In this document: piece by piece, positions 606 to 36,600 of the stretch
Layout of the letters: the number at the start of each line of letters is the position of its first letter
Numbering within the stretch: position 1 is the first letter of the stretch
DNA from: a virus
DNA: 64,000 bases
Virus record (IMG/VR): IMGVR_UViG_3300047444_000783
Span: 1 to 64,000 of that record
Strand: one strand, 5' to 3'
Notes under the pieces: model-generated
The model's database searches: none
Seen by the model: the letters and a program-made list of their open reading frames with translations, nothing else
What the model was told of the DNA's origin: nothing
Program-made: the position numbers and the translations under genes

Positions 606-829
606 GTAAGACGACATTGTTGACGGTTGGGGCGATTAAGAACGCAGTCGAAGCCGGGAACACGGTGTACGCGGGAACGAAGGCGTATCGAGTCATTAAA
701 GACAGTCTTGGTCAATGGCTGATCAAGTGTGATCTGAACGGGTATTGCATCGGCCTGACGTGGAGGGATGGTCAGACGCTGAATGGTAATCCTGGGGATT
801 TCTTCATAGAAAGAGAGGAGTCGAAATGA
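602..829 (+). CDS. Hypothetical protein, 75 aa
   Basis: Starts at ATG 602 behind a strong GGAGG (592-597) and overlaps both neighbours by four bases. The sequence, MSKTTLLTVGAIKNAVEAGN onward, is mixed alpha/beta in character, ends in a charged tail and has no membrane segment. The family is not recognised. Its place in a run of coupled short genes fits phage early accessory genes. Confidence 0.7.
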   Translation: MSKTTLLTVGAIKNAVEAGNTVYAGTKAYRVIKDSLGQWLIKCDLNGYCIGLTWRDGQTLNGNPGDFFIEREESK

Positions 830-1308
830 GACGCGTAGAAATCAAGAGCATGATCGACACAACGTACACGGATGACGAATTGGCAATCGCGGTAGTTGGG
901 AGTTTGTCCTCCCTGCCGGGGATTGAGCGGGTACAGACGTTCGCGCCGCGTGCGATGGATGTGAAAGAGGTTGGGTATTCGCAGCCGATGACCAAGGGAC
1001 GGCAGATGCTGACGGACGTGGTTAACCGATGCGCCAGTGAAGGAGCGCAGGTGATTGAGAACAAACCGTGTGAGCACGTGGATTATGACGAAGCGCAGGA
1101 TGGTCACGTGAAATGCCGCACGTGCGGGTTGGAGGCAGAGATCCAACCGTGCGTGGTCTGCGGTGAGTACAGCGTGCTTGTGGAAGTTGGGGATAGTGAG
1201 AACGTGATTCGACCGTGCGATACCGAAGGTTGCGCGGGTTCCCAAGAGCAAGTGTGTGACGACTGTCGTTCGAACGGTCCGCAGAGCAAGTGCGGACATT
1301 GGAAGTAA
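826..1308 (+). CDS. Cysteine-rich zinc-binding-like protein
   Basis: A 160-residue protein whose C-terminal half carries several Cys/His pairs. From about residue 85 there is a CEHVD..CRTCG pair, then CVVCG, then further C-x(4-5)-C and CDDC motifs ending in CGHW. This spacing suggests at least two zinc ribbons. The N-terminal 80 residues are acidic and lack known motifs. It could bind nucleic acid or a host protein, but no specific role can be read. Its TAA stop directly abuts the first ribozyme-like element. Confidence 0.75.
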   Translation: MRRVEIKSMIDTTYTDDELAIAVVGSLSSLPGIERVQTFAPRAMDVKEVGYSQPMTKGRQMLTDVVNRCASEGAQVIENKPCEHVDYDEAQDGHVKCRTCGLEAEIQPCVVCGEYSVLVEVGDSENVIRPCDTEGCAGSQEQVCDDCRSNGPQSKCGHWK

Positions 1309-1382
1309 CGCAGATGGGCGGGGCGATTGCCCCGTTAATGCGGCCTGACGGTCCACAGCCCGTCAAAATCAAACCGCTGGAG
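1309..1382 (+). ncRNA. Twister-like self-cleaving ribozyme candidate, copy 1
   Basis: The invariant CGCAGA (1309-1314) is followed by TGG (1315-1317), hairpin CGGGGC-gatt-GCCCCG (1319-1334), TTAATGCGG, and hairpin TGACGG/CCGTCA (1346-1365) with loop TCCACAGC. CGCA pairs with TGCG (1339-1342), and TGG pairs with loop CCA (1353-1355). In twister terms these are P2, T1, P1 (closed) and P4, with predicted cleavage between T1336 and A1337. CCGC (1374-1377) can pair instead with GCGG, just before the GGAG of the gene at 1389. The loop has CA where other copies have AA. The family call is inference from this architecture. Confidence 0.72.
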
Positions 1383-1388
1383 ATACCG

Positions 1389-1844
1389 ATGGAAACGAAC
1401 TTGGATAAGGTGACAAAGCCTCTGACGCTCGCTGAGTTTCGCGCGACCGGCAGGATTGCGCTGGTTGATGAGACGGGTGAAGTTCATTCGAATGCCGGCC
1501 ACTTCGACGGCGAAGTCTCTTACGGCCGTGTTTACGAATTAGGTTGCTTCATCTACCTGGACATCGACGCAACCCCAACAATTCCCGCCACATGGAGACT
1601 GGTTATCGAGCGTTCCGAGTACGAGGGGAAACTTTCAGACATGGAAGAGGTTTTGTATCGCACGTGGTACCTGCCGGAATGCTGTGGTTACGATCTGGCA
1701 ACCGAAGTCTTTGAGCGGGTGTGTCAGGCGATGCAACCGGCGGAGGAAATGGGCGGACTGACGAGCACGGGCTACATTGATCTGATGATGAAGGTGGCGC
1801 GGGAGGCTGAACGGCGAGCGGTCACGTGCGCCACGCTCAGGTAA
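1389..1844 (+). CDS. Hypothetical protein, 151 aa
   Basis: ATG 1389 is chosen because the GGAG at 1379-1382, at the end of the RNA element, sits 6 nt upstream; the frame stays open upstream to 1290. The protein starts METNLDKVTKPLTLAEFRAT. It is acidic and soluble, with a CC pair near the middle (LPECCGYDL) and a helical, basic C-terminus. No family is recognised. Its stop is followed one base later by RNA copy 2. Confidence 0.7.
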   Translation: METNLDKVTKPLTLAEFRATGRIALVDETGEVHSNAGHFDGEVSYGRVYELGCFIYLDIDATPTIPATWRLVIERSEYEGKLSDMEEVLYRTWYLPECCGYDLATEVFERVCQAMQPAEEMGGLTSTGYIDLMMKVAREAERRAVTCATLR

Positions 1845-1845
1845 A

Positions 1846-1921
1846 CGCAGAGGGGCGGGCAGAGATGCCCGTTAATGCGGTCAGCCGGTCCCAACCCCGG
1901 CTAAATCAAACCGTGATGGAG
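1846..1921 (+). ncRNA. Twister-like self-cleaving ribozyme candidate, copy 2
   Basis: CGCAGA 1846-1851, GGG 1852-1854, P1 hairpin CGGGCA-gaga-TGCCCG (1856-1871), T|AA at 1873/1874, P2 strand TGCG, then P4 AGCCGG/CCGGCT (1883-1902) with loop TCCCAACC. The GGG pairs with loop CCC (1890-1892). GAGGG before P1 and TCCCAA in the P4 loop are the classic twister sequences. The alternative 3' strand is CCGT (one G-U pair). GGAG at 1918-1921 serves the gene at 1929. Confidence 0.78.
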
Positions 1922-1928
1922 TCCACCG

Positions 1929-2414
1929 ATGTCCACTGTTCAACCCACCGTGCTCACCAAAGAGCATATTCACTTCATTCGGAAAGCAAATAAGTCCATC
2001 GTCTTCCGGTACATCCAAGGCCGTCAGTCGATTGAGATTGAGAACGAGATAGGCGCAGAACTGAAGATCGACGCTGGTTTCTACTATCGGGGATACGGGA
2101 ATACGGAACCCGGGACGCCTGAGCGTGAACCGCACAAAGCGTTCGACATGATCCACACACCATCCTGGGACCAGCCTTGGCAGACGGTTATCGCGCTGTT
2201 AAAGCCGGGGGATACGCTGAATGTCCGCTGGTTGGCGAATACGAACGGGTATGTCGAACGCGCGACGTTCGCAGGCGATAAGGATTGCGAATCGTTCAAT
2301 GCTCTGCATATGGATCAGGTTTTCGTGGAGATCGTGCGTGGTAAGCAAGTCCTGACGTTCGCGGTGGGTTTGTCGGTATGCCCGCAGAACAGTGCGCGGA
2401 TGTTCCAATACTGA
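1929..2414 (+). CDS. Hypothetical protein, 161 aa
   Basis: Starts at ATG 1929 behind the GGAG that closes RNA copy 2. The sequence, MSTVQPTVLTKEHIHFIRKA onward, contains an acidic beta-rich middle (IEIENEIGAELKIDAGF) and a region with GDTLNVRWLANTNGYVE, which resembles an all-beta fold. There are no membrane segments or metal motifs. The family is not recognised. It is the only gene between RNA copies 2 and 3. Confidence 0.7.
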   Translation: MSTVQPTVLTKEHIHFIRKANKSIVFRYIQGRQSIEIENEIGAELKIDAGFYYRGYGNTEPGTPEREPHKAFDMIHTPSWDQPWQTVIALLKPGDTLNVRWLANTNGYVERATFAGDKDCESFNALHMDQVFVEIVRGKQVLTFAVGLSVCPQNSARMFQY

Positions 2415-2416
2415 AT

Positions 2417-2492
2417 CGCAGAGCGGTCCCCACTTCAGTGGGGATTAATGCGGGCGCACGGTCGCAACCCCGTGCAAATTCACTCGCAGGAG
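2417..2492 (+). ncRNA. Twister-like self-cleaving ribozyme candidate, copy 3
   Basis: CGCAGA 2417-2422, GCG 2423-2425, P1 hairpin TCCCCAC-ttca-GTGGGGA (2427-2444), T|AA at 2446/2447, then P4 GCACGG/CCGTGC (2456-2475) with loop TCGCAACC. GCG pairs with loop CGC (2463-2465). P1 has opposite strand composition to copies 1 and 2 but keeps full pairing. The alternative 3' strand CTCGCA (2483-2488) pairs with TGCGGG. GGAG 2489-2492 precedes ATG 2499. Confidence 0.78.
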
Positions 2493-2498
2493 AATCGA

Positions 2499-3134
2499 AT
2501 GAGAATCAAAGAGACAAAACTCTACAAGTTCGACGAACTGTCAGATCGGGCCAAAGAGAACGCGCGTGACTGGTGGAGACAGATGGAAGCTGAGAGTCAG
2601 GACAATAGCTTCGCAGAGTTTGTGATCGACGATGCGGAGAAGATTGCTGAGATCCTTGGCATTGAACTTAAAACCAGGCCCGTCAAGTTGATGGGAGGAG
2701 GCACGCGCTACGATCCGTGCATCTGGTGGAGTCTCGTGTACTCTCAGGGCGATGGTGCATCGTTCGAAGGACGGTATCGGTATGCGGCGGGGAGCGTGAA
2801 GAAACTAAAAGAGCACGCACCCCAGGATGAGAAGTTGCACCGGATTGTCGAAGGTCTAGCTGCGATCCAGCGGCGCAACTTCTACCGTGGGGTGATCGAC
2901 ATTGGGCAGCGAGGCAACTACACACACTCCTATTCGATGGACTTCAGCGACGTGTCGGACCGTGAATTGTCAGGCGAGGACTATGGCGGCCTGTGTGAAC
3001 TTCTACGCGATTTCGCGGACTGGATCTACCGGCAATTGCAGGCAGAGTACGAGTACCAGAATGCGGATGCTCAGGTAGATGAGGCAATCCAGGCGAACGA
3101 GTACGAGTTTACAGAAGAAGGGAGACGCTCATGA
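2499..3134 (+). CDS. Conserved phage hypothetical protein (YKFDEL family)
   Basis: A 211-residue protein starting MRIKETKLYKFDELSDRAKE, followed by NARDWWR. This opening (YKFDELS-x-AKE-KARDW) is familiar from hypothetical proteins in many phages; their function is unknown. The middle is rich in Tyr, Gly and Trp and the C-terminal 60 residues are strongly acidic and helical. ATG 2499 is set by the GGAG of RNA copy 3. It overlaps the next gene by ATGA. It may be a DNA-mimic or modulator, but only the acidic tail hints at that. Confidence 0.75.
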   Translation: MRIKETKLYKFDELSDRAKENARDWWRQMEAESQDNSFAEFVIDDAEKIAEILGIELKTRPVKLMGGGTRYDPCIWWSLVYSQGDGASFEGRYRYAAGSVKKLKEHAPQDEKLHRIVEGLAAIQRRNFYRGVIDIGQRGNYTHSYSMDFSDVSDRELSGEDYGGLCELLRDFADWIYRQLQAEYEYQNADAQVDEAIQANEYEFTEEGRRS

Positions 3135-3379
3135 GCGAAGACAAAGAACTGACGATCTACGAGGCACTGAAAGCCGCGGGCGTACCGCTGGACTCGCACG
3201 AGTCGGACCTGTACGCGCTGGTCACACCCGAGAGCACACGAATTGTCGAAGCGTATCGCTTTCGCTCGAACGTCACGACGTTCGTCAGCCAGATCGACAA
3301 GAAACGCTGGTACGACATTCCATTTGCCTACCTGCCGTTCTGGGAGAAGAAATCGAAAGGGGGTGAGGTTATTGGGTAG
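3131..3379 (+). CDS. Hypothetical protein, 82 aa
   Basis: Coupled to the upstream gene by ATGA, with GAAGAAGGGAG as ribosome binding site. The protein begins MSEDKELTIYEALKAAGVPL and ends with an aromatic, basic patch (WYDIPFAYLPFWEKKSK). It is soluble with no recognised domain. Genes like this commonly follow the YKFDEL-type gene in phages, from memory only. Its TAG lies four bases before RNA copy 4. Confidence 0.7.
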   Translation: MSEDKELTIYEALKAAGVPLDSHESDLYALVTPESTRIVEAYRFRSNVTTFVSQIDKKRWYDIPFAYLPFWEKKSKGGEVIG

Positions 3380-3383
3380 ATAA

Positions 3384-3470
3384 CGCAGAGGGACGGCCGT
3401 GTGTGTGGAAGCCACGGCCGGTAATGCGGCGGACTGGTTCCCAAGTGCCAGTCAAATCACACCGCTGGAG
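3384..3470 (+). ncRNA. Twister-like self-cleaving ribozyme candidate, copy 4
   Basis: CGCAGA 3384-3389, GGG 3390-3392, long P1 CGGCCGTG/CACGGCCG (3394-3401 with 3413-3420, 11-nt loop), T|AA at 3422/3423, then P4 GACTGG/CCAGTC (3432-3453) with loop TTCCCAAGTG. GGG pairs with loop CCC (3440-3442). This copy carries both GAGGG and TCCCAAG, the closest match to natural twister sequences. The alternative strand is CCGC. GGAG 3467-3470 precedes a GTG start at 3480. Confidence 0.78.
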
Positions 3471-3479
3471 AAATCGACA

Positions 3480-4010
3480 GTGAAACTCGAAATCAAAGGA
3501 CTCAAGACCTGGAAGACGGACGATGGCGGCGGCTACCAGTACACACTAATGGTCGATGGACGGCGCGCGGCATTCGTACATAACGATGGCAATGGTGGCG
3601 GTTCGCGGTTCGATACGACACCGAGAGTGGGAGACGACAAACTGTTTGAGCAATTCGCGGACTACGTGGCAGCCTTACCGTTATCCGCATGGGACCATCC
3701 GATATTGGGCAATCTGTTCGATCCGAAAGAGAACCGTGGAGCATGGTACGAGGAAGCGACGCCTGAAGAACGTGCGCGACACGACCGTGCGAGTAAGGTG
3801 GAGATTTACGCCGAGCGTCTAGTGGATGAGTTTGAAGAGGCGAAACAGATGAAACGATGGTGCGCGAAAAAGACGGTCGTGCGGCTGAAGACGCACAAAC
3901 CGGAACAGTACCTGATCTACCCGATGCCATACACGGCGGCATTCGCTGAGAAGCTACGGGCGAAGCATGGCGAGCAGTTGGTAGAGATCGTAAACGAACG
4001 ATTCGTCTAA
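3480..4010 (+). CDS. Hypothetical protein, 176 aa
   Basis: GTG 3480 is preferred, 9 nt after the GGAG of RNA copy 4, because no nearer ATG is in frame. The product begins VKLEIKGLKTWKTDDGGGYQ and contains beta-rich N-terminal and charged helical C-terminal parts (YAERLVDEFEEAKQMKRW). It has single Cys residues only and no recognised family. It is a single-gene segment between RNA copies 4 and 5. Confidence 0.7.
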   Translation: MKLEIKGLKTWKTDDGGGYQYTLMVDGRRAAFVHNDGNGGGSRFDTTPRVGDDKLFEQFADYVAALPLSAWDHPILGNLFDPKENRGAWYEEATPEERARHDRASKVEIYAERLVDEFEEAKQMKRWCAKKTVVRLKTHKPEQYLIYPMPYTAAFAEKLRAKHGEQLVEIVNERFV

Positions 4011-4011
4011 A

Positions 4012-4088
4012 CGCAGACGGGTGGCGTGCGAACGCCACTAATGCGGTCGCTGCCGGTCCGAAACCCGGAGCAAATTCAACCGCTGGAG
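4012..4088 (+). ncRNA. Twister-like self-cleaving ribozyme candidate, copy 5
   Basis: CGCAGA 4012-4017, CGG 4018-4020, P1 GTGGCGT-gcga-ACGCCAC (4021-4038, GNRA loop), T|AA at 4039/4040, then P4 CCGG/CCGG (4053-4068) with loop TCCGAAAC. CGG pairs with loop CCG (4058-4060). The outer part of P4 is less regular here (a bulge separates GCT and AGC). The alternative strand CCGC is at 4080-4083 and GGAG at 4085-4088. Confidence 0.75.
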
Positions 4089-4094
4089 ATGGAC

Positions 4095-4316
4095 ATGCTT
4101 CAGAAAGACATTCAGAAGGGCAAGTTGTACACGATCAAGCATCATGACGGGCAAATCTACACGGTGCGTGTGGATGGTATCGGTTCGCGCCGAACATTCG
4201 GTTCGCGTGACGGGGTGAGTAAGACGCTCGTGCGGTATCTCTGCACGAAATTGGCAACCGGCAATTCGATCATCGTGAAGTCGGCCGCGAAGTTTCGCGA
4301 GGAGGTAGCCCAATGA
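4095..4316 (+). CDS. Hypothetical protein, 73 aa
   Basis: Two in-frame ATGs exist (4089 and 4095). ATG 4095 is chosen because it is 6 nt from GGAG. The protein, MLQKDIQKGKLYTIKHHDGQ onward, is small and basic with beta-strand character followed by a helix, and has no Cys pairs. It overlaps the next gene by ATGA. A nucleic-acid-binding role would fit the charge, but this is a guess. Confidence 0.65.
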   Translation: MLQKDIQKGKLYTIKHHDGQIYTVRVDGIGSRRTFGSRDGVSKTLVRYLCTKLATGNSIIVKSAAKFREEVAQ

Positions 4317-4927
4317 TTTTCGAATTCAAGAACATGGTGCAGAAGTCTGACGGCGAGTGGCGCTACCAGACGGCAGAAACTGGCGAGGTCATACGCGTGG
4401 TCGTGCGGTACATCAAGAGTGCGAGCGCCTCGCGTCGAGGTATCCACGTGTCGGTCGAACCCTGGACGATCGAACCGGCAGGAGATCGCGGCTTTTCGAC
4501 TGAATCCACGACCCTGATGTCGGATGCGAGCACGTTTGTCGAGCACCTGGCGCGCATCAAACCGAGTGCGGTCGCGCAAGTTGCGGCAAAGATCGACGCC
4601 CACGCGCCGGCATTCGCTCAATTCTTCCGCCTGGAGGGCCAAGACAAAACCAAACAGGCGTTGAAAGCGTTTTTCGAGGCAGGAACTCTGCCGGTTGTCA
4701 GTACGCAGAGTGTGAGCGTTGAGCGAACGAAGCTGGCGTTGAAGCGTGACCCGCTAGTGCCGGTCGGTCAGACGTCACCATTGCATGTCGATTGCCCGTG
4801 CGGTCGCGCGATCCTGATTATTACTGAGTTAAACGGGTGTCACGGCTGCGGGTTGGTCGTGGACAGTGCCGGTTGGATAAAGGGCAACGATGCTGTTCGC
4901 ACGCCAGACGGTTGGATGTTCATATGA
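4313..4927 (+). CDS. Hypothetical protein with C-terminal zinc-ribbon motif
   Basis: A 204-residue protein, coupled by ATGA on both sides. The C-terminal 50 residues hold CPCG and CHGCG about 15 residues apart, a typical four-cysteine zinc ribbon. The first 130 residues are alpha/beta with no known motif. The family is not recognised. Phage proteins with such terminal ribbons often bind nucleic acid or RNA polymerase; that is a possibility only. Confidence 0.7.
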   Translation: MIFEFKNMVQKSDGEWRYQTAETGEVIRVVVRYIKSASASRRGIHVSVEPWTIEPAGDRGFSTESTTLMSDASTFVEHLARIKPSAVAQVAAKIDAHAPAFAQFFRLEGQDKTKQALKAFFEAGTLPVVSTQSVSVERTKLALKRDPLVPVGQTSPLHVDCPCGRAILIITELNGCHGCGLVVDSAGWIKGNDAVRTPDGWMFI

Positions 4928-5052
4928 GTTATCAATTCTGGCCGTCGCAGCGGGATCAGGAGCCGCCCAACCATGGTAACTGGCGCGCGGGTCTGTTCGT
5001 GATCGGAATGATCTGGGGTCTGATCTATCTGATCCTGAGGTTCTTCAGATGA
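4924..5052 (+). CDS. Small single-pass membrane protein, 42 aa
   Basis: ATG 4924 overlaps the previous stop. The protein starts MSYQFWPSQRDQEPPNHGNW and has one hydrophobic helix near the C-terminus (LFVIGMIWGLIYLILRFF), giving a cytoplasmic N-terminus and a C-terminal anchor. No function is known. The frame extends upstream to 4837, but that part overlaps the previous gene fully. Confidence 0.55.
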   Translation: MSYQFWPSQRDQEPPNHGNWRAGLFVIGMIWGLIYLILRFFR

Positions 5053-5105
5053 CGCCACTAACCAAACCACTGACGCGCAGATCAGCGGCTGTCATTCGCA
5101 ACTAG
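5049..5105 (+). CDS. Possible 18-aa peptide
   Basis: An ATG overlapping the previous stop as ATGA opens a frame of 18 codons, MTPLTKPLTRRSAAVIRN, ending nine bases before RNA copy 6. The same coupling is seen at real gene joints here, but so short a frame may be chance. The stretch holds nothing else. Confidence 0.2.
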   Translation: MTPLTKPLTRRSAAVIRN

Positions 5106-5113
5106 AAAATAGA

Positions 5114-5188
5114 CGCAGAGCAGCCCCGCCACGGCGGGGTTAATGCGGCGGTCCGGTTGCAAGCCCGGACTAATTCAACCGCGCAGGA
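5114..5188 (+). ncRNA. Twister-like self-cleaving ribozyme candidate, copy 6
   Basis: CGCAGA 5114-5119, GCA 5120-5122, P1 CCCCGC-cacg-GCGGGG (5124-5139), T|AA at 5141/5142, then P4 GTCCGG/CCGGAC (5151-5170) with loop TTGCAAGC. GCA pairs with loop TGC (5158-5160), a triplet different from copies 1-5. The alternative 3' strand is CCGC (5179-5182). The Shine-Dalgarno is AGGA at 5185-5188, slightly different from other copies. Confidence 0.78.
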
Positions 5189-5197
5189 TGGAACGAT

Positions 5198-5395
5198 ATG
5201 AAGTACGTAGTTACCGTAACGCAGACAGCCAAAGAACTGTCAGACGTCGATGACATGCAAGACAACCCGTCAGGGAGTTATGAGATTGAGGCGCGGTCTG
5301 CGGATGCGGCGCTTGACGAATTTCACGCAACGGTCCCGATTGGGTGCCTTGAGGACTTCGAAATCATCGTGGAACAGGAGACGACCAATGGTTAG
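5198..5395 (+). CDS. Hypothetical protein, 65 aa
   Basis: Begins MKYVVTVTQTAKELSDVDDM. It has the beta-alpha pattern of small phage proteins in which an N-terminal strand is followed by a repeated-exposure helix (SYEIEARSADAALDEF). The gene at 5638 has the same layout (FAFDVQLQAVVRVQAETEAE), so the two may be distant paralogues. It starts 9 nt after the AGGA of RNA copy 6 and overlaps the next gene by 8 bases. Function unknown. Confidence 0.7.
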   Translation: MKYVVTVTQTAKELSDVDDMQDNPSGSYEIEARSADAALDEFHATVPIGCLEDFEIIVEQETTNG

Positions 5396-5636
5396 GACAT
5401 TCGACGAAACAAAGGACCAGGTGCTCGATTCGCGCACGGGGATCGAGCGCGAGCGCACGCGCATCCTCGTACAGATCTGCAGCTACAACGGCGGTCAGGC
5501 GAAGTTGCAGTTGAAGCGCGAGAACAAGTCGAGCGACGGCTGGACGTTCGCAAAACTGGGGCGCATGACGGGCGAGGAGTTTAGCGAACTCGTGCCGGTC
5601 GCGCTCGAACTGATCGACGCAAACGGGGTGAAGTGA
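5388..5636 (+). CDS. Hypothetical protein, 82 aa
   Basis: ATG 5388 lies within the end of the previous gene, with CAGGAG upstream; the frame is open earlier, but the first 46 codons would overlap the previous gene. The protein starts MVRTFDETKDQVLDSRTGIE. The core (ILVQICSYNGGQAKLQLKR, then FAKLGRMTGEEFSELV) looks like a small beta-sheet plus helix fold. It resembles phage proteins with a transcriptional-coactivator-like layout, but the match is too weak to name. Confidence 0.65.
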   Translation: MVRTFDETKDQVLDSRTGIERERTRILVQICSYNGGQAKLQLKRENKSSDGWTFAKLGRMTGEEFSELVPVALELIDANGVK

Positions 5637-5637
5637 A

Positions 5638-5892
5638 ATGAAAGAATTTGCATTTGACGTCCAATTGCAAGCGGTTGTTCGCGTCCAGGCGGAGACCGAA
5701 GCGGAGGCGAGGGAGGCGCTTGAGAACATGCAGGCTGTTGATTGCTCTGTTGTTGAGGCGCGGGAGGGCCTAGCGGCTGACGAGGACTCACTGATCGTGC
5801 TAGACCGTGGAACCATGCGCGTCACAGAGATCAGCTCGATACCGACAACGATCCATATGTTTGAACTGGATGGAATTGAGGTAAGTGGATAA
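5638..5892 (+). CDS. Hypothetical protein, 84 aa
   Basis: Starts MKEFAFDVQLQAVVRVQAET immediately after the previous stop. It is acidic, with a strand-helix-strand start that resembles the protein at 5198. No metal or membrane motif is present. It ends TAATG, sharing one base with the next start, so translation is likely coupled. Function unknown. Confidence 0.7.
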   Translation: MKEFAFDVQLQAVVRVQAETEAEAREALENMQAVDCSVVEAREGLAADEDSLIVLDRGTMRVTEISSIPTTIHMFELDGIEVSG

Positions 5893-6059
5893 TGCCAAAC
5901 ATGGAGTACGTCCGATTCGAGAACACATTGCACGATCTTCGCGATTGCCAGGAGCATATGGACGACGAGTTACAGCCTGCCGAAGCGAAGGCACAGTTGC
6001 GGCTGGTCAAACTCTGCAGGCAGATCGCAGGAGACTACGAACACTTAGAATCTGAGTAA
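5892..6059 (+). CDS. Hypothetical small protein, 55 aa
   Basis: Starts at the TAATG junction and reads MPNMEYVRFENTLHDLRDCQ, continuing as a charged, fully helical sequence (DDELQPAEAKAQLRLVKLCRQI). It ends one base before RNA copy 7. It has two scattered Cys and no recognised family. Coding bias and coupling support it as a real gene. Confidence 0.6.
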   Translation: MPNMEYVRFENTLHDLRDCQEHMDDELQPAEAKAQLRLVKLCRQIAGDYEHLESE

Positions 6060-6060
6060 T

Positions 6061-6136
6061 CGCAGACCACTGGCGTCTCCGGACGCCAGCAATGCGGGCG
6101 GCCGGTTGGAACCCCGGCCAAATTCACTCGCAGGAG
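6061..6136 (+). ncRNA. Twister-like self-cleaving ribozyme candidate, copy 7
   Basis: CGCAGA 6061-6066, CCA 6067-6069, P1 CTGGCGT-ctccgg-ACGCCAG (6070-6089), C|AA at 6090/6091, then P4 GGCCGG/CCGGCC (6100-6119) with loop TTGGAACC. CCA pairs with loop TGG (6107-6109), the inverse of copy 1. The base before the predicted cut is C rather than T; twister also accepts C there. The alternative strand CTCGCA (6127-6132) pairs TGCGGG, followed by GGAG. Confidence 0.77.
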
Positions 6137-6142
6137 AATCCG

Positions 6143-6307
6143 ATGAAGGTACAGAAGTGCACGGAATGCGATAAACGATCATTGCCTGGATTGAAAGCAG
6201 GTAAAGGTAAGTGCCAATACCATTGGAACGTCGGCGTATGGGGAAAACAATGGGCAGATAGGGTCCTCGCTGAAGTTCGAGACTTTTCGAAGCCGAAGGA
6301 GGCATGA
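6143..6307 (+). CDS. Hypothetical small Cys-containing protein, 54 aa
   Basis: Starts MKVQKCTECDKRSLPGLKAG, 6 nt after the GGAG of RNA copy 7. A CTEC pair near the start and a C-x-Y-H (CQYH) 17 residues later could form one zinc knuckle. The rest is basic and aromatic. Function unknown. It is the first gene of the segment that ends with the recombinase. Confidence 0.65.
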   Translation: MKVQKCTECDKRSLPGLKAGKGKCQYHWNVGVWGKQWADRVLAEVRDFSKPKEA

Positions 6308-6483
6308 TGTCATTCTCAAAAACGACACAATACGACGGTATCCACATCACCCTTGCCATTGACGACATGGACCTCGTGTGCTGGACAGGCCGGATGCAGG
6401 TGGAAACGCTGGAGATCAAGCATATCCCCGTCGATGTTCAGACGTACATCCGCAAGATCGAGCGGGAGAGGTTCGACTTATGA
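6307..6483 (+). CDS. Hypothetical small protein, 58 aa
   Basis: ATGATG offers starts at 6304 and 6307. The second is chosen because AAGGAGG (6296-6302) is only 1 nt from the first. The product begins MSFSKTTQYDGIHITLAIDD and ends in a basic helix (TYIRKIERERFDL). It overlaps the recombinase start by four bases, so the two are probably translated together. It might be a small partner of the recombinase, but only the overlap suggests that. Confidence 0.6.
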   Translation: MSFSKTTQYDGIHITLAIDDMDLVCWTGRMQVETLEIKHIPVDVQTYIRKIERERFDL

Positions 6484-7349
6484 ACGCCTGGTTGTACGCG
6501 CGCGTCTCCACCTACAGCAATAACTGTAACAACTGCCGAAAGACCTTTCTGGATTCGGCAAAGTCTCCGGTCTGCCCGGTCTGTGGCTCGTCGGATGTGC
6601 AGAAGTCGCAGGATACGGAGAATCAGATGATCGTCCTTCGTCAGTGGATGGCGAGTCTGGGCCACACGGTTACGGCAGTCTACGAGGATCGCGCGAGCGG
6701 CAAGACGGGTGAGCGCGAGCAGTTCAAGAAGATGATGCTCGATATACGGGCGCGCCGGCCGCGGGCACCAATAGTTGTCGGATTCTGGGCGCTCGACCGG
6801 CTGTCGCGTGAGGGCGCGCTCGCGACGCTGAAGTACCTGCAGGACATCACGAACATGGGCGCTCACGTGAAATCGTATACCGAGCAGTACCTGGACACGA
6901 TGGGACCGTGGGGCGAGGCGATCATTGCGTTCCTGGCAACGATTGCCAAGCAGCAGCGCATCCGCCTGGCCGAGAATACGCGAGCCGGGATCGAGCGCGC
7001 GCGGATTCATGGGACGAAGAGCGGGAAGCCGCACGGTCGCCCACAGAAGTTCTCACGTGCGGAGGCACTGGCGATCTTCGAGCAGTTGAAATCGTATCGA
7101 GGGACGGCTAGAGTGCTGGGAGTCTGCCAGACGGCCGTCCGTAACGTCATTCTGGGAAGGCAGGAGGAAGTCCCAACGACAATCGAGTGGAGTGACCCCG
7201 TATGGGGGCGACTCGTCGATGGTCTGTTTGTTGAAGCGGTCGATGGGCGCACGGTCGTGCGGTACGATCTGGGCACGCAGCAGGCGCATTGTTTGAATCA
7301 TCAGCAGTTGCTGTCACTCTGTCGGCATCTGCACACACTAGACGAATAA
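6480..7349 (+). CDS. Serine recombinase (resolvase/invertase family) with inserted zinc ribbon
   Basis: A 289-residue site-specific recombinase. The catalytic motif is ARVST with Ser10. Between it and the rest of the catalytic domain sits an inserted four-cysteine module (C16, C19, C32, C35). Family motifs follow: FWALDRLSREG, then the ATIAKQQRIRLAENTRAGI helix and GRPQKFSRAEA. A C-terminal helix-turn-helix-like part (YRGTARVLGVCQTAVRNVIL) would bind DNA. At this size it is a resolvase/invertase-type enzyme, not a large serine integrase. It could act in integration, inversion or dimer resolution; no att site is visible. Confidence 0.88.
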   Translation: MNAWLYARVSTYSNNCNNCRKTFLDSAKSPVCPVCGSSDVQKSQDTENQMIVLRQWMASLGHTVTAVYEDRASGKTGEREQFKKMMLDIRARRPRAPIVVGFWALDRLSREGALATLKYLQDITNMGAHVKSYTEQYLDTMGPWGEAIIAFLATIAKQQRIRLAENTRAGIERARIHGTKSGKPHGRPQKFSRAEALAIFEQLKSYRGTARVLGVCQTAVRNVILGRQEEVPTTIEWSDPVWGRLVDGLFVEAVDGRTVVRYDLGTQQAHCLNHQQLLSLCRHLHTLDE

Positions 7350-18341: not shown

Positions 18342-18986
18342 TTACAGTTTGTCGATTTCTTTCTTGAACACTTCGAGCGGTTGCGCGCCATTGATAATCT
18401 TGATCAGGCGGACGTGGTTCGGAGTGTCTTCGATGCCAAGGCCGAAGGATGGAGTGCCTGCAAACCCAAGTTTCGCCGACATGCCCTTCTCCTTCGCAAC
18501 CTCTTCCTGTATCTCTGACCTAAACGTGCACCTGTTAAACAGGTCAGAATCTAAGCCAAGGCTGGAAACAAACGATGTATCCTTAGGCTGATCCGCGAAT
18601 AGTTCATCGTGCATCGGCCAATACTGATCTTGCTCGCCAGCGCATAAGGCGTAGGTTGCGAATCGATTCGCATTCGCGTGGATCGGCAGCGGATTATTCA
18701 CAAAGACGGTCTTAATCTTGCCGGTTTCCACGTATTGAGCGTCGATGAGGGGGCTGGTCGTCCGCGCGTGCTTGATACAGAATGGACATTCGAAATCGGA
18801 GAATTCGATTAGGACTTTTTTCCCCGTCCCCTTCGATGGCATTCCTGAGATATCAACGGTCGCGCCCTTTGCGTCAGTGACTGGCGCTGGTTGTTGCTGT
18901 TTGCTGCCTCCGAATTTTTCAAGAAGCATATACACATTGATACCAAGAATCGTAACCAGGAGGACCGTAGTTAGTTTGTTGCTCAT
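18342..18986 (-). CDS. Membrane-anchored DsbA-like thiol oxidoreductase
   Basis: A 214-residue thioredoxin-fold protein. Residues 5-23 are an N-terminal membrane segment or signal anchor (LTTVLLVTILGINVYMLL). The active site is FECPFC with Cys67 and Cys70, and GTPSFGL near residue 175 supplies the cis-proline. These are features of the DsbA/DsbG-type thioredoxin_4 family, which makes or repairs disulfides outside the cytoplasm. Two further Cys (ALCAG, FNRC) may form a structural bond. It follows directly after a secreted 12-cysteine peptide gene, its likely substrate by context. Such an enzyme is unusual in a phage. Confidence 0.85.
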   Translation of the reverse strand: MSNKLTTVLLVTILGINVYMLLEKFGGSKQQQPAPVTDAKGATVDISGMPSKGTGKKVLIEFSDFECPFCIKHARTTSPLIDAQYVETGKIKTVFVNNPLPIHANANRFATYALCAGEQDQYWPMHDELFADQPKDTSFVSSLGLDSDLFNRCTFRSEIQEEVAKEKGMSAKLGFAGTPSFGLGIEDTPNHVRLIKIINGAQPLEVFKKEIDKL

Positions 18987-27684: not shown

Positions 27685-30600
27685 CTACTGCGGCGGCACC
27701 GGCACTTCGTCAGGCATGAACAGGCTTGGCGGTCCCGGGATCGGCGGCAGTCCCAGATATGGCTGCTGTTCCTTCGGTGTCGATTTGAAGGACTTAGCAT
27801 CGATCTGCTGCTGGAGCGCCATCTTGGACGCCAGCAGGTCCTTTCGTTTCTCCGGGTCAGTCGTCTTACGTAGGACCTCGTCGACGACCCGGATCTGATG
27901 TTCTGGACTCTTCATCATGCGCTCGATATCGCTCGAACCGATGCCGGCCTGGCCTGGGAATGTCGGGTTCGGAGTCTGCCGCGCGTCGTTCCGGTCGATG
28001 ATGCTGGAGATAATAGCGTTCCGGTCGGCCTCGCTGATATTGTCGGCCTCCCATTCGACGTACGCGTTATCCAGTTTCCGCATGTCCTCGTCATGGAAGG
28101 CACCGAGCATCGACTTGTCGTTGTACCAGTCGGCGCGATCTCCCTGGTTCGGATCGACCGAATGGATCCCGAGCGCACGCTTCCAGCCGAACGGGCCGTC
28201 CGACGTCGTCCACTTGTAGAGCAGTGAGTCCGGCGTATCCATCTGCTGGGCGCGCAGGTATTGCATGTACGGTCCGATCAACTGCTTGACGAAGTACTCG
28301 CGCATCAACTGCTTGCCCGTCTCCGTCTGCGGGTAGCCTTTTGCCGGATCTCCCCAGAGGTTCGGTTCGGACTTCGAGACGATCTCTTTGCCGGTGAACG
28401 AGTCGCGGTTTGCGCTGATGTCGTGGAACGCCCGCCCGATCGGATTCAGCATCTGCTCGAGCATCGCACCCGGTGCCGTCGGCCAGGTCGCGCGCGCCTG
28501 ATGTCCAAAGACGTCCTCTGCCTGCTGGCGTGCCGCCTGTTCCCACGTCCATTTACCTTCGAGCACCTTGTCGATGTTTGGTTCAAGCGTATGCAGACCA
28601 AACCAGCGCTTCACGACGTCCGTCGGAAGTTCAAGGTCGATCGTCTCCGGCTTTCCGTCGGCGTCGCGGAATCCCGTGTTGATGTGCGTCATCTCCTTCT
28701 TCCAGTCCGCGACATCCTTCTCGAGATTCGGGTACATGTAATGGTTCCAGATCATGATCGCAACGATCGGCAGCGCGACCGACAGCCAGAACTTATCGCC
28801 CGGGAAGATTTTCCCTTGAGCGGTTGCACGCTTTAGCCACGGTCCGATGATTCCGACGGCGAACGAACTGAACGGGAAGACCGTGCTGTAGACGTACCGC
28901 ATACGCTGGCTGGTTGCCCCGTAGTCGGTCGTCAGTTCGCGAGCCGCCTTACCGGCCGCCATCTCCGGCGGAAGCCCCTTGACGTTCGCGCCGCGCGCGA
29001 TAATCGGCTTACCCTGCTTGATCCGCTCCATGTTGGCTAGGAACGACGCGACCTTCGGCAGGCTGTGCACGATATTCGAGTACCGCTGGAACTCCCGGAG
29101 CATGTCGCCGATCGGATTATTGCCCCACGGGGTGATCTTCTCGAGCGTCGAGGTCTCTCGATACTGGCGGAGGCCTGGCGCGTTCGCCGCTCGAGGAACT
29201 CCGCCGGTCGCCATGAACGTCGAGTTCCAGATCCGCGCTTCCTCCATTAAATCCACAATCTGCTGATATTGTGGTGGCGGTAGTTTCTTGCGCAAGATGT
29301 TGAGTGCTTCCGGCTGCTTGGCCAGCGCTCCCATGTCCTCCGCCCAGAGCGTCATCTGGTTACCGATCGTGATGTGTGTGAAGTAACTCAGGTCCGGCAC
29401 GCCCGTCGTGAGAGTGCTCAGGATCGGCTTGATCGTCGTGACCGACAGTTTCCACGCGTTCGTTGCCGCGCGAATCATCTCACCGAACCCGCTGACGTTA
29501 TTGCTTTCGCGGAAGTGCTCGAGTTTGTCCGCGATCGCCGCCGGCAGAAGGTAAGTCTTGTGCTTACCGCCCAACGCGAGCACGTTCCGCGTCAGATCCT
29601 CTCCCATGTCGGTCATTATCGGCGGCCGGCGCGCGCCTCCGAGTATCGCGTTGCGCAGGTTTGCGATATCGGCGATCAGTTCGTCCGCTCCTAAGTGGAG
29701 CGCATCCTGAACAACTTCCTCGTTGATAGCCTGGACCGGGTAGATAATGTTGCCCGGGTTGAACTGGAATCCCTTCAGAACGTTTCCCGCCTGGTCGCGG
29801 TAGATTTTCCCTGGCTTGACTTGGCCAGACTGTCCGAGTAGCTGAACCAATTGCGGCTGCGTCAGTTTTGGCAGGACATCGTTCTCGGCCGCCGCGCGTT
29901 CGATGAAGTCGTCGATCATGTTGTGGGCGTACGCGCGTGTCCCGTACTGCTCCATCACGTGGATCCAGTCGGCATCGTGCGGCGTCTGGTGACCCACTCG
30001 TTCCTTCAGGTACAGGCGGCGAGGCGTCTGCATGCGGTATGGAAGTCCGGGCATCCGGTCCATCGCATCGCCCAACTCGTGGATCAGCATATTCGGGAAG
30101 TACTTCGCGCGACCGTCGTTCGGATCCGCCTTACCGCGGGAGACGAAGTCGTTCCACATCTCCTCCATCCACTGGTGATGACGGTCTACGGCGTCCAGGA
30201 CGGCAGGAGTTGAAATGGATCTTAGCCGGTTGATCTCAGCGTCGATTCGCGTCAGTTTGCTCGTTCCGGCCAGCGGGATCCGGCTTTCGCCAGACCTCTT
30301 GCCAGTCTCGTACATGTCTTCCCAGAAGATGATACGGCGAAACACGTCATATTCGACCGGATGTAACCCCTTGACGACCCATTCCATTTTCTTCTGAGTC
30401 TGGGCAGCCGCGTCGTTGATGATCTCCAGCGCGCGGCGGATGCGCTCGGCGAATAACGGGAAGTCCTTGATATCCTCGTTGTAGCGGGCGGCCGTCGCAA
30501 ACCGGTAGACCTGTGCCGGTATTGCCCTCATTTTTGTCCAAATGTTGCCCTGCGGCCCCGGCAGACTGTCCAGCCGGCGTATATCAGGATCCGATGACTG

Positions 30601-33600
30601 GACCAGACTCGCCTGGATCGGGGCTGGCTGCCGGCCACGCCAGAAGTTGAGCGCGCCCGCCTCACCCTTCAGTTTAGCGACGACCGCCTGCATGAACGGC
30701 TTGTCCGCCTGCAGGTCTTCGGGCGAGCGCTCCCAATCGCCGATCGGCGCGATACGGTTGCCCATGGCTGCGATACGCGAGATCGGGCCGTGCTCCCCAA
30801 GTGACAAGCCTGACGGCGTATGCGTTAGCGTCCAATTGCCTTTCTTCTCGAGACTCGGGGTCATCGCGAGGCCTGGTGCGATCTGCCATCCTTCTATCGG
30901 TTCGCGCCCATCCTTCCGGGCAGTGTTGACGGTGACCGATCGGTAGGTCTTACCGTCGAGCGTCATCGTCTTGGCGGTCTTGGCAACCGCAGATGGCCCC
31001 TCAACCGGCTTTATTCCTAATGCACTAGGAACGGCCGCCGGGCTGCCTGGCCCTTCGACGGCCGCCGGCACTTTCGGTTCCGCCGGTTCGTTCGCCATCG
31101 CCTCGTGCTCTGGCAGTACCGGCATCCCGCGCTCTTTGTTCTGGGCGATCAACTCCCTCAGCCGCGGGCGGTCCTTCTCGAGTTGCGCGTGGTATTCGCT
31201 GGCCTTCTGATCGGCCGCCTTGACCACGTCCTCGCGCTTCAGCCGCTCCTGCTCGAGCGCTTCGATGCCCGTCCGGTGCTGCTCGATCATCCGCTGCGCG
31301 TAATCCGGGCTGCCGGTCCCGTCCTGGATCTGCTTCGTGTACTCTTCGATGCGCGCCTGGCGGCCGGCGATCTCGTTGTTGACCTTCTCGAGCATCCGCC
31401 GCGCTTCGACGATGTCGTCGCCTTCGACGTCCTTGAGTTTCTTCTCGGTCTCGGTAATCCGCCGACTCGTCTGCCAGTACTCGAGCGTCGACGGATCGAT
31501 CTGGGCGTCCGCTGATATATCAGCGTAGTTGCGGTGATCCTGGTCGAAGTCCATGACTTCGTTCGAATCGCCGAACCACAGTTCCTCTAACCACTTTGCT
31601 TTACGCGCCAGCACCGCGTACATCTTCGCGTCCGACGTCCCCTTACCGACGTACCGGTGGACCCGGACAATCCCGCGCGGAAGTCCTGTCTTCTTATCGA
31701 TGTTGCCCTGACGGACTCCGCGGCCTTCACGCTGCTCGAGCGCGGCCGGCGTCCACGGCACATCGTAGTGGTGGATGTCAGTCGTACTGGACTGCAGGTT
31801 CATGCCCTCGCCCATCGAGGCGGTTGTCCCGATCAGGAATCGGATCTTGCCTTCGGCGTTCGCCTGCTGAACCGCAAACTTCTTCTTCGGCCCGTTGTTC
31901 GAACCCTGGTTAATGATCGCGATCTGGTCTTCAGGAATACCGAGCGCCATCAGGGCTTTCTTGAGTTCTTTGTGGATGTTGACCAGTTCATAGGTCTTCA
32001 TCTTGACCTTCGCGTCCGGATCCACCGGCCCCGGCGCTGGCGTCACGCTCGGATCGACTGCCGAATTCGCTTCGTCCTCGCCTTCGGTACTCTCGTCGGC
32101 CGACAGATTGCCGGAGTCATCCTCGACGTCGATCGCCTTGATGTGATCCTCGTTCCCATCCTCGAGGAACATCTTGATCAGCCGTTCCTGATCGCCTCCG
32201 ACCGGCACACGTGCGATCGCGCGGTAGAGATCCATGAAGATCAGTTGCGTATTGTCGCCCTGGTCGGACTGCTTCACCTGCTGGATGATCTCGTGGAGTT
32301 TGGATCCTTCACGGCCGAGCAGCTTGCGGTAACGAATTGGGTTGTAGACCGCCAGATCGGCTGCGAGTTTGCGCGCGACCGTCAACAGGTTGATCGGGAT
32401 CCAGCCGTTCGCCGCCGCTTCCTTGAAGTTCCGCGTGATCCAGTCGTCAATGTCAGCGATACGTGCGGCTTCGAAACTGGTCTCAGGCGACGGATTGAGA
32501 ACGTGCTCGACGTACTGCGCCGTAGGCCGCTGCAGGGCGAACGCGCTCGTCGGCCGCATGTCGATATAGCGGCGGAAGATTGGCCGCAGGTCGTTCATGT
32601 TCTTATAGCCAATAAAATTCACGCGGATCTTTGGCACGCCAGTCGTGCCGGCTTCTTCCGTCTGGCCGACGATCCCGAAGTTATTGACGAACTGCCCTGC
32701 GTCGTTGATGCCGCGGTCCCTCCACTCATCGGGCGCAACATACTGCAGCATGTTGTAGATCTCGATCGGATTATTTGGCGTCGGCGTGGCCGTCAATCCC
32801 CAGACGTTCTGGCCCTTACGCCCGGACTTGCGTTCGTGAATATAGCGGGTCTTGTACAGCATGTCGGCCGCGCGCTGCGAGTACGAGGCCGCGTGCAGCC
32901 ATTCCGACATGTCCATGTACTGGACTGGTGCGTTTTTGTAGTTATGTAACTCGTCCCCAATGATGGAATCGATGCCCGTATCCTCGAAGAAGATTGCGTT
33001 CGTCTTCTTCATGTCCTGGATCGCCGCAAGTTTGCCGCGCATCTTGCGGATCTGCTCCTGGATCACGGTCTCCATCTTCCGGTTCGCCTGGGCACCCGTC
33101 TTCTCCTTCATCTGGCGTAGACGGTCCTCGTACTGCCGGATGTCTTCCTCGAAGTAGTCTTCAGCCGCGCGCAGCGGGATTTCCTTCATCCCCTCGTACG
33201 TCGCAATGATGTAGTCGGGGCTGGACATCGCCACCTGATGGAGCATCCGGTTGCGATTCTTCGAGTTCATTTCGCTCAGGTTGAGGATCTGGGCGGTCGG
33301 GAACAACTCTCCTATCTCATACGCCCAGTTGCCAGCGACCTTGGCTGGCACGACAAGCAGCGGTTTATTGATCAGCCCGCGCTGACGAGCAATCGCGATC
33401 ATCGTGATCGCCTGGCTGGTCTTTCCGGCGCCTACGCCGTGTGCATTAATTCCCGAGCGTGTGCGTAATAATTGCTCAGTCGCCTCCCACTGGTGTTTAT
33501 GAATAGCCAGCGGCTTGCCCTTGAAATTAGCAGCCAACCCTTCGATGGCCTGCTCCTTGCCTTCGAATGATGGATGGCGGAACGATCGGAACATCCGGTT

Positions 33601-36600
33601 GTACGTCGGCACCAGATGATCCACGCGGTCGAGGTTCGCCTTGAACCAGTCCTTAAAGACGTCGCCGAGTTGGTCCTGGATCGCCTGCTCGTGGAGGTCG
33701 AACACGGTCTTTGTCTTCTGCTTGCCGTTATAGTCGTACTCGCCGGTGCCGACGACCGTCGTCGCGCGCTTGTGGTTCAGGTACTGCTCGACCTGCTTGG
33801 CGTCGAACTCGTGATCACCTATTTCTCCGGTCTTTGCGTTCGTCACGACGCTCCGCTTGAACGTACCTTTGCCGCCGACCTTCCACATGTGCCGGTTGTT
33901 CTCTGGCACGTACTCGAGTTCGGCGTTCAGGCCGGCCGACTTCAGCCAATTCAGGACCGTCCCCTGGTCCATGAACGAACTGAACGGGTCTGCCGGTAAC
34001 TCATTGACCGTCGCCTGTGGAGGGAGCGCCGCCTCGAGTTCCTTCATCTGGCTGTCAAGTGCTGGTAAGATACCCTGATCGAATTTCGATGGGTCCGCCT
34101 GGACCTGCTGGATCATCGCCTCCGTCTGATCGATCTTCGGCCAGATCGGACCATACAGATACTCCTCGTTGATATCGATCGTCGGCTTGCCATCGGCGGA
34201 GAGCGCGCTGATGCTAAACCCAGGCCGACCGACCAGGAGTTCGTCGATCTGGCCGGTCCCGCGGTATCGCTGCTCGATCTCCCCACGGTTTAGCTCGCCA
34301 GTCTTTTCGTAAACAAACTTAGCGACGTCCTCGATATCCTTCGGGTCGTACTTCCGGTCCGGCGGAATCGGCTTCCAGATCGTGTTAGTCGTGAAGACCG
34401 CCGACGGCTTACCGTTCCGATCGGTCAGTCCAGCCAGCGACCAGATCCGCGGATCCGCAAAGCTGAGCGGATTGTTCTCGGTCCCGCCCCCGACCAGCAG
34501 ATATAGGTTGTTGTCGTACCCCGGCGGCGGGGCCATCTTCCCTTTGTTCTTGCCCGACTGGATAGCGAACTGAGTCCGGTAGTTCTGGATCGCCTGGAGC
34601 AACTGTGGCCGGATCTTGTCGGCCGCCTTCGTGTCGTCTTTACGGAGCGAGTCGTAGAGTTTGTCCGTCAGCTCCATCATGCGGACAGACTGAATCACAC
34701 GCTGGTGAGCGTTCGGTGCCAGCCCCTTCGGGAACGCCGGGTACATGTTCCCATCGCCTGACGCGTAATTGATCTGGTCTTTCTTCGAATCGTAGATCAG
34801 TGTCCCGTGGCGCGTGCCTTCCGGCGCCTTGCCTACCGGCTGTTCGGTTTCCGCAAAACCGGCGACCGACGCCTTAGTCTCCCGCGGTACCCACTTGATA
34901 TCGTCGCCGAGACTCCCGCTCATGAACTCTTCGATCGGCTTCGTCGGCCGGACGCCAATGCGGGTCACCTGGCGCACACCGTAGCCGGCTTCCGGCTTAC
35001 CCCACATCTGCTCCGGGTTCTTCAGGTAGTAATCGTTCAAGCGGGCAGGCGGCTGTCCGGACTTGGAAAACTGATCTGTCTCGCGCGCATTAATCCATTC
35101 GCCGGTCTTTGGCTCCTCGGTGATCTTGAATTCGAATTCAACGCCAGCGGCCTTAGTAACAGCCTGAATCGCCTTGATCGCCTCAATCTCTTCGGGCGTA
35201 CGCTTCCGCAGAAAGACCGCGTCGACGGACCCGCCGTACTGGGTGTTCTTCTGAAACTCGCCGGCTGGCGTTCGGTAGGCGCCAAGGAACTCCGCTTTCT
35301 CGCTGATCAGCTTGCGGATCTCCGGACTCAGCTTATCCATCGTGCCGGTCGACGTCAGGAAGGACACGACACCGTTTGGCTTTGCCAGATCCAGCGACTT
35401 CATGAAGAAGAAGTCGTGTAGCGTACTGATGTTCTTATAGGCTTCGGCGTCCTTGGAATATTGAAGTTGACCGCGCGAAGCACTGAACGGCACGTTCGAG
35501 AAGATGACGTCGAACAACTGCTTCGTGATGAATTCTTCGAACGGCTTGTTCTGAACGTTCGCCTGTGGGTACAGAAGCGCCGCGATCTTCGCGGCCGTCG
35601 GGTCGATCTCGACCATCGTGATCTTTGTGCCGGCCGGAGCGAAGCCCGCGTAGTTGCCGATGCCGGCAGCCGGTTCGAGCATGCTCGCGCCGTCGAGTGG
35701 ATAGCCCATGGCCTGTAGCTTGTTCCAGTGCCACTGCACCATCTTGTACGACGTGTAGTGCTCAAACAGCACGCCCTCTTCGGCCGACTGCAGTCCACCG
35801 TGGCCGGTGTACTGGCGCAGGATATCCTGCTCTTCGGGCGTCAGTGGGTCGCCCGGCTTCTTCGTCGCCGCGAGATCGGTCGCGCGCGCGTTGATATCCC
35901 GCCGTTGCTGCGGTGTCAGCACAACCGGTTCTTTGCCGATTAGGGTAAAACGTTCTCGGGCTGATCGTTCAACGCGTTCTGATTTAGCTGGCTGCGTAGC
36001 TGGTCGCTCGGCAGGCTGCCCGCCAGGTATTCCTTCGTTAGATCCGAGATCAGATTCGCCCGGCCGTACTCCTCCACCACCGCCGGCGGCAGGCTGTTGT
36101 CCACGAAGTCCGCCGCCATCTCCTCCGCCTGCTGAACCCGGTCCATCTCGTTCAACGGGATGTTCGTCAGGTCCGTGTCCCCCGATAGATCCGGTAGATC
36201 CTGTGGCATTGTCTTCCTCCCCTATAGCTTCAGGATGATCCTTAAACCACTGAGAAATCAAGTCAAATTGACTGCGAAGGTACGGACGGATGGCTTCACC
36301 GATGTCATCGATCATCCGCTCGGCCCAGGCACCGAACTCGCGCGCGCCGGCTTCGAAGTAATAGCCGCCGAGTTTGAACATGTCGGCCAGCATCTCCGGG
36401 TCGAATCCGACGTTCAGTTGCTTGAACTTATCGCGCAGCCGCTTGCGAGCCGCGTCCGCATCGTCCTCGGTAAAGAACTTGTTGCCCTGTCCGAAACCTT
36501 TCTTCGGTTCAGCCTCTGGTTCTGGCGGAGGCGGGATGTGTGGGCCACCGACTGGCGGAGGCGGAAGAGTCGGAGCAGGTCGCGTCTGAGTGGCGCCGCC

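Follow-up and report, generated by a model that had tools for sequence, protein, structure and literature searches.

Seven predicted twister ribozymes lie at gene junctions of what appears to be one operon in a 64,000-nucleotide (nt) stretch of viral DNA, positions 1 to 64,000 of IMG/VR virus record IMGVR_UViG_3300047444_000783 (the window). Judging from the sequence, we consider it likely that these ribozymes cut a polycistronic transcript at every junction where neighboring genes are uncoupled, which would yield about eight mRNAs, and that each cassette is a two-sided end-former whose new 5′ end is closed by a sealing helix. An earlier note on this DNA had proposed that a long message cuts itself into gene-sized mRNAs; this proposal fits the anatomy, covariation and recurrence described below, except that the units would be blocks of genes and not always single genes.

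Identity and covariation of the seven ribozymes

Comparison of the window with Rfam 15 (cmscan), the covariance-model search that the earlier note had suggested as a check, returned exactly seven Twister-P5 (RF02684) matches, at the same seven starts where that note had seen twister-like copies. All seven were full length (model positions 1–58), on the plus strand and above the gathering score of 37.6 bits, with scores of 44.1–59.1 bits and E values of 1e-9 to 7e-6. These ribozymes, numbered 1 to 7, are located at 1309–1363 (55.2 bits; predicted cut 1336/1337), 1846–1900 (59.1 bits; 1873/1874), 2417–2473 (55.3 bits; 2446/2447), 3384–3451 (47.9 bits; 3422/3423; a long P1 hairpin), 4012–4068 (46.0 bits; 4039/4040), 5114–5168 (57.7 bits; 5141/5142) and 6061–6117 (44.1 bits; 6090/6091). 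The same search of the window returned no Rfam match other than Twister-P5, hammerheads included, and searches for further Twister-P5 copies gave none in the rest of the 109,586-base virus record and none in 14 control genomes.

The core CGCAGA, AATGCGG and GGT...C form the invariant columns among the seven copies, while the hairpins vary. Pairwise identity is 60–79%, with the core nucleotides and every pairing retained in all. The seven cut positions computed from the core agree with the U/A cuts named earlier, apart from the U itself in copy 6061, which has C at 6090; this is the only core departure at a cut site, and it falls in the lowest-scoring copy. Overall, the U 5′ of the cut is present in six of the seven window copies and in 86/91 copies, the A 3′ of the cut in 91/91, and the core G of loop L1 (alignment column 5) in 87/90. 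The nucleotide 5′ of the scissile bond is described as less conserved in twister (PMC5408937).

Covariation was analyzed in an alignment of 95 matches from this virus and others, using a covariance model built from 37 sequences and containing stems P1, P2 and P4 only. In this alignment, 93.4% of cells pair, compared with 66.3% with shuffled partners, and compensatory double changes fill 400 versus 114 cells; sliding the 3′ partners by 1–3 columns lowered pairing to 31–43%. Pairing is 89.7% for P1, 96.2% for P2 (four pairs) and about 98% for P4, with double changes in all three stems. Because pseudoknots T1 and T2 were left out of the model, they provide an independent test of the fold. T1 (three pairs between L1 and L4) is paired in 97.8% of cells, with two-sided changes at 3/3 pairs, and T2 (the GC of L2 with L4) in 85.5%, with double changes at 2/2 pairs; one T2 pair is broken in copy 1846. 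The earlier observations that the hairpins differ but keep pairing, and that the three nucleotides after CGCAGA complement positions 2–4 of L4 (the T1 pairing; 7/7 in sequence), hold in the window and across the 95 copies. The covariation as computed is a reproduction of the published twister architecture, which comprises three essential stems and two pseudoknots and includes a type-P5 permutation (PMC5408937). The circular permutation with a closed P1 that the earlier note had described matches this known type, and by sequence and predicted fold all seven are true twisters of type P5.

Gene junctions in this virus and in others

Analysis of the 15 gene junctions within 826–6480 revealed seven with a ribozyme and eight without. 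At each of the eight ribozyme-free junctions the genes overlap or abut (spacing −8 to +1 nt). Every non-overlapping junction has a ribozyme, with gaps of about 80–100 nt; the gap at 5114 comes to 145 nt if the 18-codon open reading frame there, which is unconfirmed, is disregarded. Because ribozymes are present at the non-overlapping junctions and absent from those that overlap or abut, the predicted cuts would divide blocks of genes that are probably translationally coupled. Placement between a stop codon and the next Shine-Dalgarno (SD) sequence, reported earlier for all seven copies, was borne out: in six copies the upstream stop codon ends 0–4 nt 5′ of CGCAGA, and copy 5114 begins 61 nt beyond the end of the nearest sizeable gene, or 8 nt beyond that of the 18-codon frame. 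On the other side, a start codon with an SD lies 25–29 nt beyond P4. For two genes the strong-SD starts at 1389 and 3480 were used, where scripted calls had run the genes upstream through the ribozymes (to 1314 and 3399).

All of the blocks are on the plus strand. The gene before ribozyme 1 (826–1308) overlaps a gene at 602–829, and its stop codon abuts the ribozyme. Single-gene blocks are found between ribozymes 1 and 2 (1389–1844), 2 and 3 (1929–2414, a weak phrog_27970 relative) and 4 and 5 (3480–4010, with a GTG start). Ribozymes 3 and 4 enclose two overlapping genes at 2499–3379 (2499–3134, phrog_5162, and 3131–3379); ribozymes 5 and 6 enclose overlapping genes at 4095–5052 (4095–4316, 4313–4927 and 4924–5052), together with the unconfirmed 18-codon frame at 5049–5105; and ribozymes 6 and 7 enclose four overlapping or abutting genes at 5198–6059 (5198–5395, 5388–5636, 5638–5892 and 5892–6059). 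Past ribozyme 7, overlapping genes extend over 6143–7349 (6143–6307, 6304–6483 and 6480–7349, the last encoding a serine resolvase-family protein).

Pattern and covariance-model searches showed that this kind of array is not peculiar to this virus. A loose pattern, CGCAGA-gap-TAATGCGG, gave mostly chance matches in viral contigs and was replaced by covariance models and a stricter pattern, the latter present in more than 119 stretches of viral contigs and at least 103 of bacterial genomes. Same-strand arrays of 3–7 twisters occurred in more than twelve unrelated contigs of viral or prophage origin (given below by our G and L handles), including 11 of the 49 viral records searched whole with the Rfam family, always on a single strand within each array; the array-bearing records were found through the twister pattern, among the matches listed, and are no measure of prevalence. 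Further arrays lie at other loci (L214, L234, L209, L277 and L310). Ribozyme-bearing and tight junctions numbered six and three in G022, five and two in G007, five and four in G013, five and two in L277 (a Clostridia contig) and three and four, with one 35-nt gap, in G012. Hand reading gave six and seven in G041, where the script had run a gene across one of the ribozymes. This virus and G041 are distant sisters, with 50% identity in a VapE-like protein, and the six ribozymes of G041 lie near homologues of the same genes, at junctions that are not identical. Among cultured phages, Tunturi_4 (PP885687.1), which infects Tunturiibacter empetritectus M8UP27, carries four above-threshold twisters at gene junctions annotated by the depositors, with predicted cuts on the minus strand of its record near 63120, 62192, 59961 and 58376 (8872, 9800, 12031 and 13616 in L518); the paper on this isolate leaves ribozymes unmentioned (PMC11924767).

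Searches through array proteins 4313–4927 and 1389–1844 found no closer relatives, and a search for DNA similarity to the whole array found none among INPHARED phages. Protein 2499–3134 had two relatives (L244 and L245), both in records without twisters. The gene family of 1929–2414 is flanked by twisters on both sides in the window, G007 (L381) and G022 (L379), which are otherwise unrelated viruses. The five twisters of L277 (1307–3499 and 7012–7394) are in a metagenome-assembled Clostridia contig that also has a tmRNA gene and a DUF4942 protein. A tmRNA gene is often an integration site, and this contig is probably a prophage or another mobile element.

Contact with the upstream stop codon was frequent among the copies. 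Upstream sequence was long enough for this analysis in 208 of them, and in 63.9% of these an open frame of 50 or more codons stopped within −10 to +3 nt of the start of the ribozyme, compared with 7.1% of random same-strand positions. The distances peak at 0, +1 and −10 nt, and the UGA within CGCAGAGUGA itself serves as the stop in 27 copies. Stops that abut or overlap the ribozyme start would also be expected if the twisters cut for control, with a terminating ribosome covering CGCAGANNN, the strand that forms P2 and T1, and blocking folding, so that cutting reports upstream translation. However, compact phage genomes place any intergenic element beside a stop, and twister folding and cutting are very fast, making such control unlikely in our judgment.

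Two contigs bear on what the proposed processing cassette needs. In L390, an HDV-F-prausnitzii ribozyme (5972–6040) lies between a stop codon plus GC-rich hairpin and the next SD and start codon, placed like the two twisters of the same contig and followed by a similar leader. In L218, a 206-kb viral contig, two twisters are followed downstream, on the same minus strand, by a pistol ribozyme (5527–5607) with a terminator-like hairpin after it. The presence of these HDV-like and pistol ribozymes beside twisters suggests that the kept feature is self-cleavage itself and not the twister class, the same conclusion as was drawn from ribozyme clustering (PMC10085705). Whether phage twister arrays in general are a common two-sided cassette that cuts exactly at the borders of coupled blocks and seals the downstream 5′ end with the freed P2 strand, in a slot that other classes can fill, we regard as an even chance.

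Complement of the cleaved 5′ end and the proposed mechanism

Just 5′ of the SD, leaders very often carry CCGCAUU, CGCAUU or CCGC, complements of AAUGCGG, the new 5′ end that cleavage would create. For each of 212 distinct copies, we took the longest helix that the leader can form with nucleotides 1–8 of the product; its mean length was 3.83 nt, compared with 3.18 nt in shuffles (standard deviation 0.04; maximum of 300, 3.32 nt), and 0/300 permutations of the 5′ ends reached a mean helix of 3.83 nt. The complement was significant on its own in G007, G022, G042, G047 and L234 (0/500 shuffles each), and shuffles did as well in 1/500 for G041, 5/500 for G015, 6/500 for L209 and 8/500 for G012.

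The partner also follows the product. Where a G042 ribozyme would yield AAUGCACA, it carries UGCAU(U). Exchanging the 5′ ends between the two kinds shortened the mean helix that spans the variable base from 3.39 to 1.88 nt (from 2.70 to 1.60 nt in a second swapped set of only ten copies). The G042 leader at 18716 has a perfect 6-nt complement. At product nucleotide 8 in the window, U is met by A in copies 1846 and 4012, and G by C in copies 2417 and 6061. Three G007 leaders and one G022 leader present the complement in a hairpin loop with variable flanks. In Tunturi_4, a phage found after the idea had formed and not used to find it, a perfect six-base CGCATT directly follows P4 in three of four leaders (helices of 6, 6, 6 and 3 nt); 1/5000 shuffles were equally good, and the predicted fold of one leader pairs nucleotides 1–6.

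For the window's seven leaders, folding predicts a mean pairing of 0.75 between UGCGG and the leader. The complements, all on the plus strand, are CCGC at 1374–1377, adjoining the SD and complementary to GCGG at nucleotides 4–7 of the cleaved end; ACCGUG at 1910–1915 (to UGCGGU, with G-U); CUCGCA at 2483–2488 (to UGCGGG, with G-U; pairing probability 0.95); CCGC at 3462–3465 (to GCGG; not in the minimum free energy (MFE) fold); ACCGC at 4079–4083 (to GCGGU); CCGCGCA at 5179–5185 (to UGCGG in two registers; the MFE fold picks another helix); and CUCGCA at 6127–6132 (to UGCGGG, with G-U; pairing probability 0.93). A downstream CGCAGAGG-like stretch in some leaders was considered as a second, type-P1 twister and rejected, since by eye its three-nucleotide segment mismatches L4.

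A separate feature is a hairpin that accompanies almost all gene starts downstream of a ribozyme, and also a few other starts, in G022 (L379, minus strand), L234 (minus strand) and G007 (L381, plus strand). A constant loop contains or adjoins the SD, the start codon is located at or close to the 3′ foot (catcgGGAGTAGAAcgatg, ttcactggAGTAGtcagtgaa and ttgaggAGACAtctcaaATG), and the stems differ with pairing kept. These are likely conserved ribosome-binding-site hairpins or translational operators.

We propose the following sequence of events. The cassette, with CGCAGA at the upstream stop codon, would be transcribed in the order CGCAGA, P1 hairpin, UAAUGCGG and P4 hairpin, and the RNA would fold during synthesis (P2, P1, P4, T1 and T2) and then be cut rapidly between U (or C) and A; a twister cleavage rate near 1000 per minute is predicted under physiological conditions (PMC6154101). 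The upstream mRNA would end in CGCAGANNN and the GC-rich P1 hairpin, with a 2′,3′-cyclic phosphate, and the downstream mRNA would begin with 5′-hydroxyl AAUGCGG and have the P4 hairpin at its 5′ side, such that the type-P5 permutation would leave a hairpin on both sides of the cut (P1 upstream, P4 downstream). The freed AAUGCGG would leave P2 and pair with the complement before the SD, and the resulting helix around P4 would seal the 5′ end and leave the start codon about 50–55 nt downstream of it. Since the complement is transcribed only after the ribozyme, it would be able to capture the freed UGCGG, which would stop re-ligation and bury the new 5′ end. 5′-Terminal helices and 3′ hairpins slow bacterial mRNA decay. 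The purpose of such cassettes would be to separate and protect the gene blocks and to make the expression of each independent. The sequences show the motif and its covariation, the placement and recurrence of the copies, and the leader complement with its statistical support; we infer cleavage in the cell, the order of these events and their purpose.

Another conceivable role of the leader complement is to make a ribozyme-gated ribosome site, in which UGCGG would be held in P2 until cleavage and would then free the SD. Opening of the SD after cleavage was predicted in single cases (L386:5031–5092, from 0.04 to 0.84), and some arrays have the SD hairpins described above. However, mean predicted SD opening barely moves (0.42 cleaved versus 0.40 uncleaved in the window, by a model without pseudoknots), leaving gating quite improbable.

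A selfish or mobile nature of these RNA units is also very improbable, as is a role in cleavage and ligation that would give circular or spliced RNAs in place of mRNA processing. The duplicated look of the window's cassettes is compatible with mobility, and small ribozymes are common in eukaryotic retroelements (PMC7761336), but the strict placement from stop to SD and the divergence of stems with retained pairing argue otherwise. An RtcB ligase gene is absent from 19 array-bearing viral records, including this one, the only match in the RtcB search being in Brevibacillus phage Jenst, which lacks Twister-P5; moreover, the hammerhead cluster study found no spliced or circular products (Perreault et al., PMC3088659). 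Decay into inactive remnants with no present role, for which the low score and missing U of copy 6061 might speak, is scarcely credible given the intact core and pairings of seven copies at 60–79% identity and the generally weaker conservation of the nucleotide 5′ of the cut in twister (PMC5408937).

Several points count against transcript processing with sealed 5′ ends. Both cleavage and a single spanning transcript are predictions from DNA, and scans for consensus promoters and terminators gave matches at or below shuffle level. The window's own complement is short (4–6 nt with G-U), with moderate support (18/500 shuffles), and the window copies are not independent because they look like duplicated cassettes. 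The complement is absent in the L277, G009 and L180 arrays, and the junction rule is looser in G042, G047 and G009, where long non-overlapping junctions lack a ribozyme. In addition, a twister placed in an E. coli 5′ untranslated region, with the SD always accessible, changed expression little (PMC5052635).

Relation to known ribozyme systems

The earlier note had held that the use of a serial ribozyme array for transcript processing was undescribed, which is contradicted for another ribozyme class. According to Perreault et al. 2011 (PMC3088659), prophage hammerhead clusters flank genes or short blocks of genes, long phage transcripts were proposed to be cut into operon- or gene-length mRNAs, and hammerheads were shown to cleave in vitro and, in the Agrobacterium case, also in E. 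coli. The processing idea is thus already in print. As in those clusters, several same-strand ribozymes lie between genes of one predicted operon here, but the class is twister, and the hammerhead account, so far as its available text goes, lacks the rule of uncoupled junctions, any contact with the stop codon, ends shaped on both sides of the cut and a complement in the leader. The features that we believe to be new are the rule for which junctions carry a ribozyme, contact with the stop codon and the sealing helix. A literature search found no paper on twister arrays, although the original twister paper and a key review, beyond the reach of that search, may mention clusters.

Like the type-P5 twister (RF02684; Roth et al. 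2014 via PMC5408937 and PMC10085705), the array copies have the core, P1, P2, P4, T1 and T2, with ends at the position of P5, P1 closed and the cut before a conserved A. Unlike it, they lack the P5 stem itself, their 5′ end is a gene's stop codon, they are serial in one predicted operon, and each is followed by a sequence complementary to the cleaved 5′ end.

Self-cleaving ribozymes occur preferentially close to one another and to Mu-like phage genes (Weinberg and colleagues, as summarized in PMC10085705), and ribozymes of different classes likewise cluster near phage genes here. In contrast to those clusters, whose reason is called unknown in that summary, the arrays give a concrete layout and a testable mechanism. 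For phage ribozyme clusters of a purpose termed unknown in the literature (PMC10085705), they would offer a concrete rule, to cut only uncoupled junctions. The arrays also give a precise anatomy at both new RNA ends.

In the synthetic designs of ribozyme-assisted polycistronic co-expression and RiboJ-type insulators, a ribozyme between cistrons yields separate mRNAs with structured ends. The arrays differ in being natural and in that the 5′ helix would come from the ribozyme's own cleaved strand; if this proves true, a cleaved strand serving as a 5′ cap helix would be a useful design for synthetic operons. A direct test is possible because Tunturi_4 and Tunturiibacter empetritectus M8UP27 are a cultured pair with four annotated junctions.

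Elsewhere in the window, a gene at 27685–40224 (minus strand) encodes a 4179-amino-acid protein that matches DarB-like antirestriction, DNA methyltransferase and helicase families.

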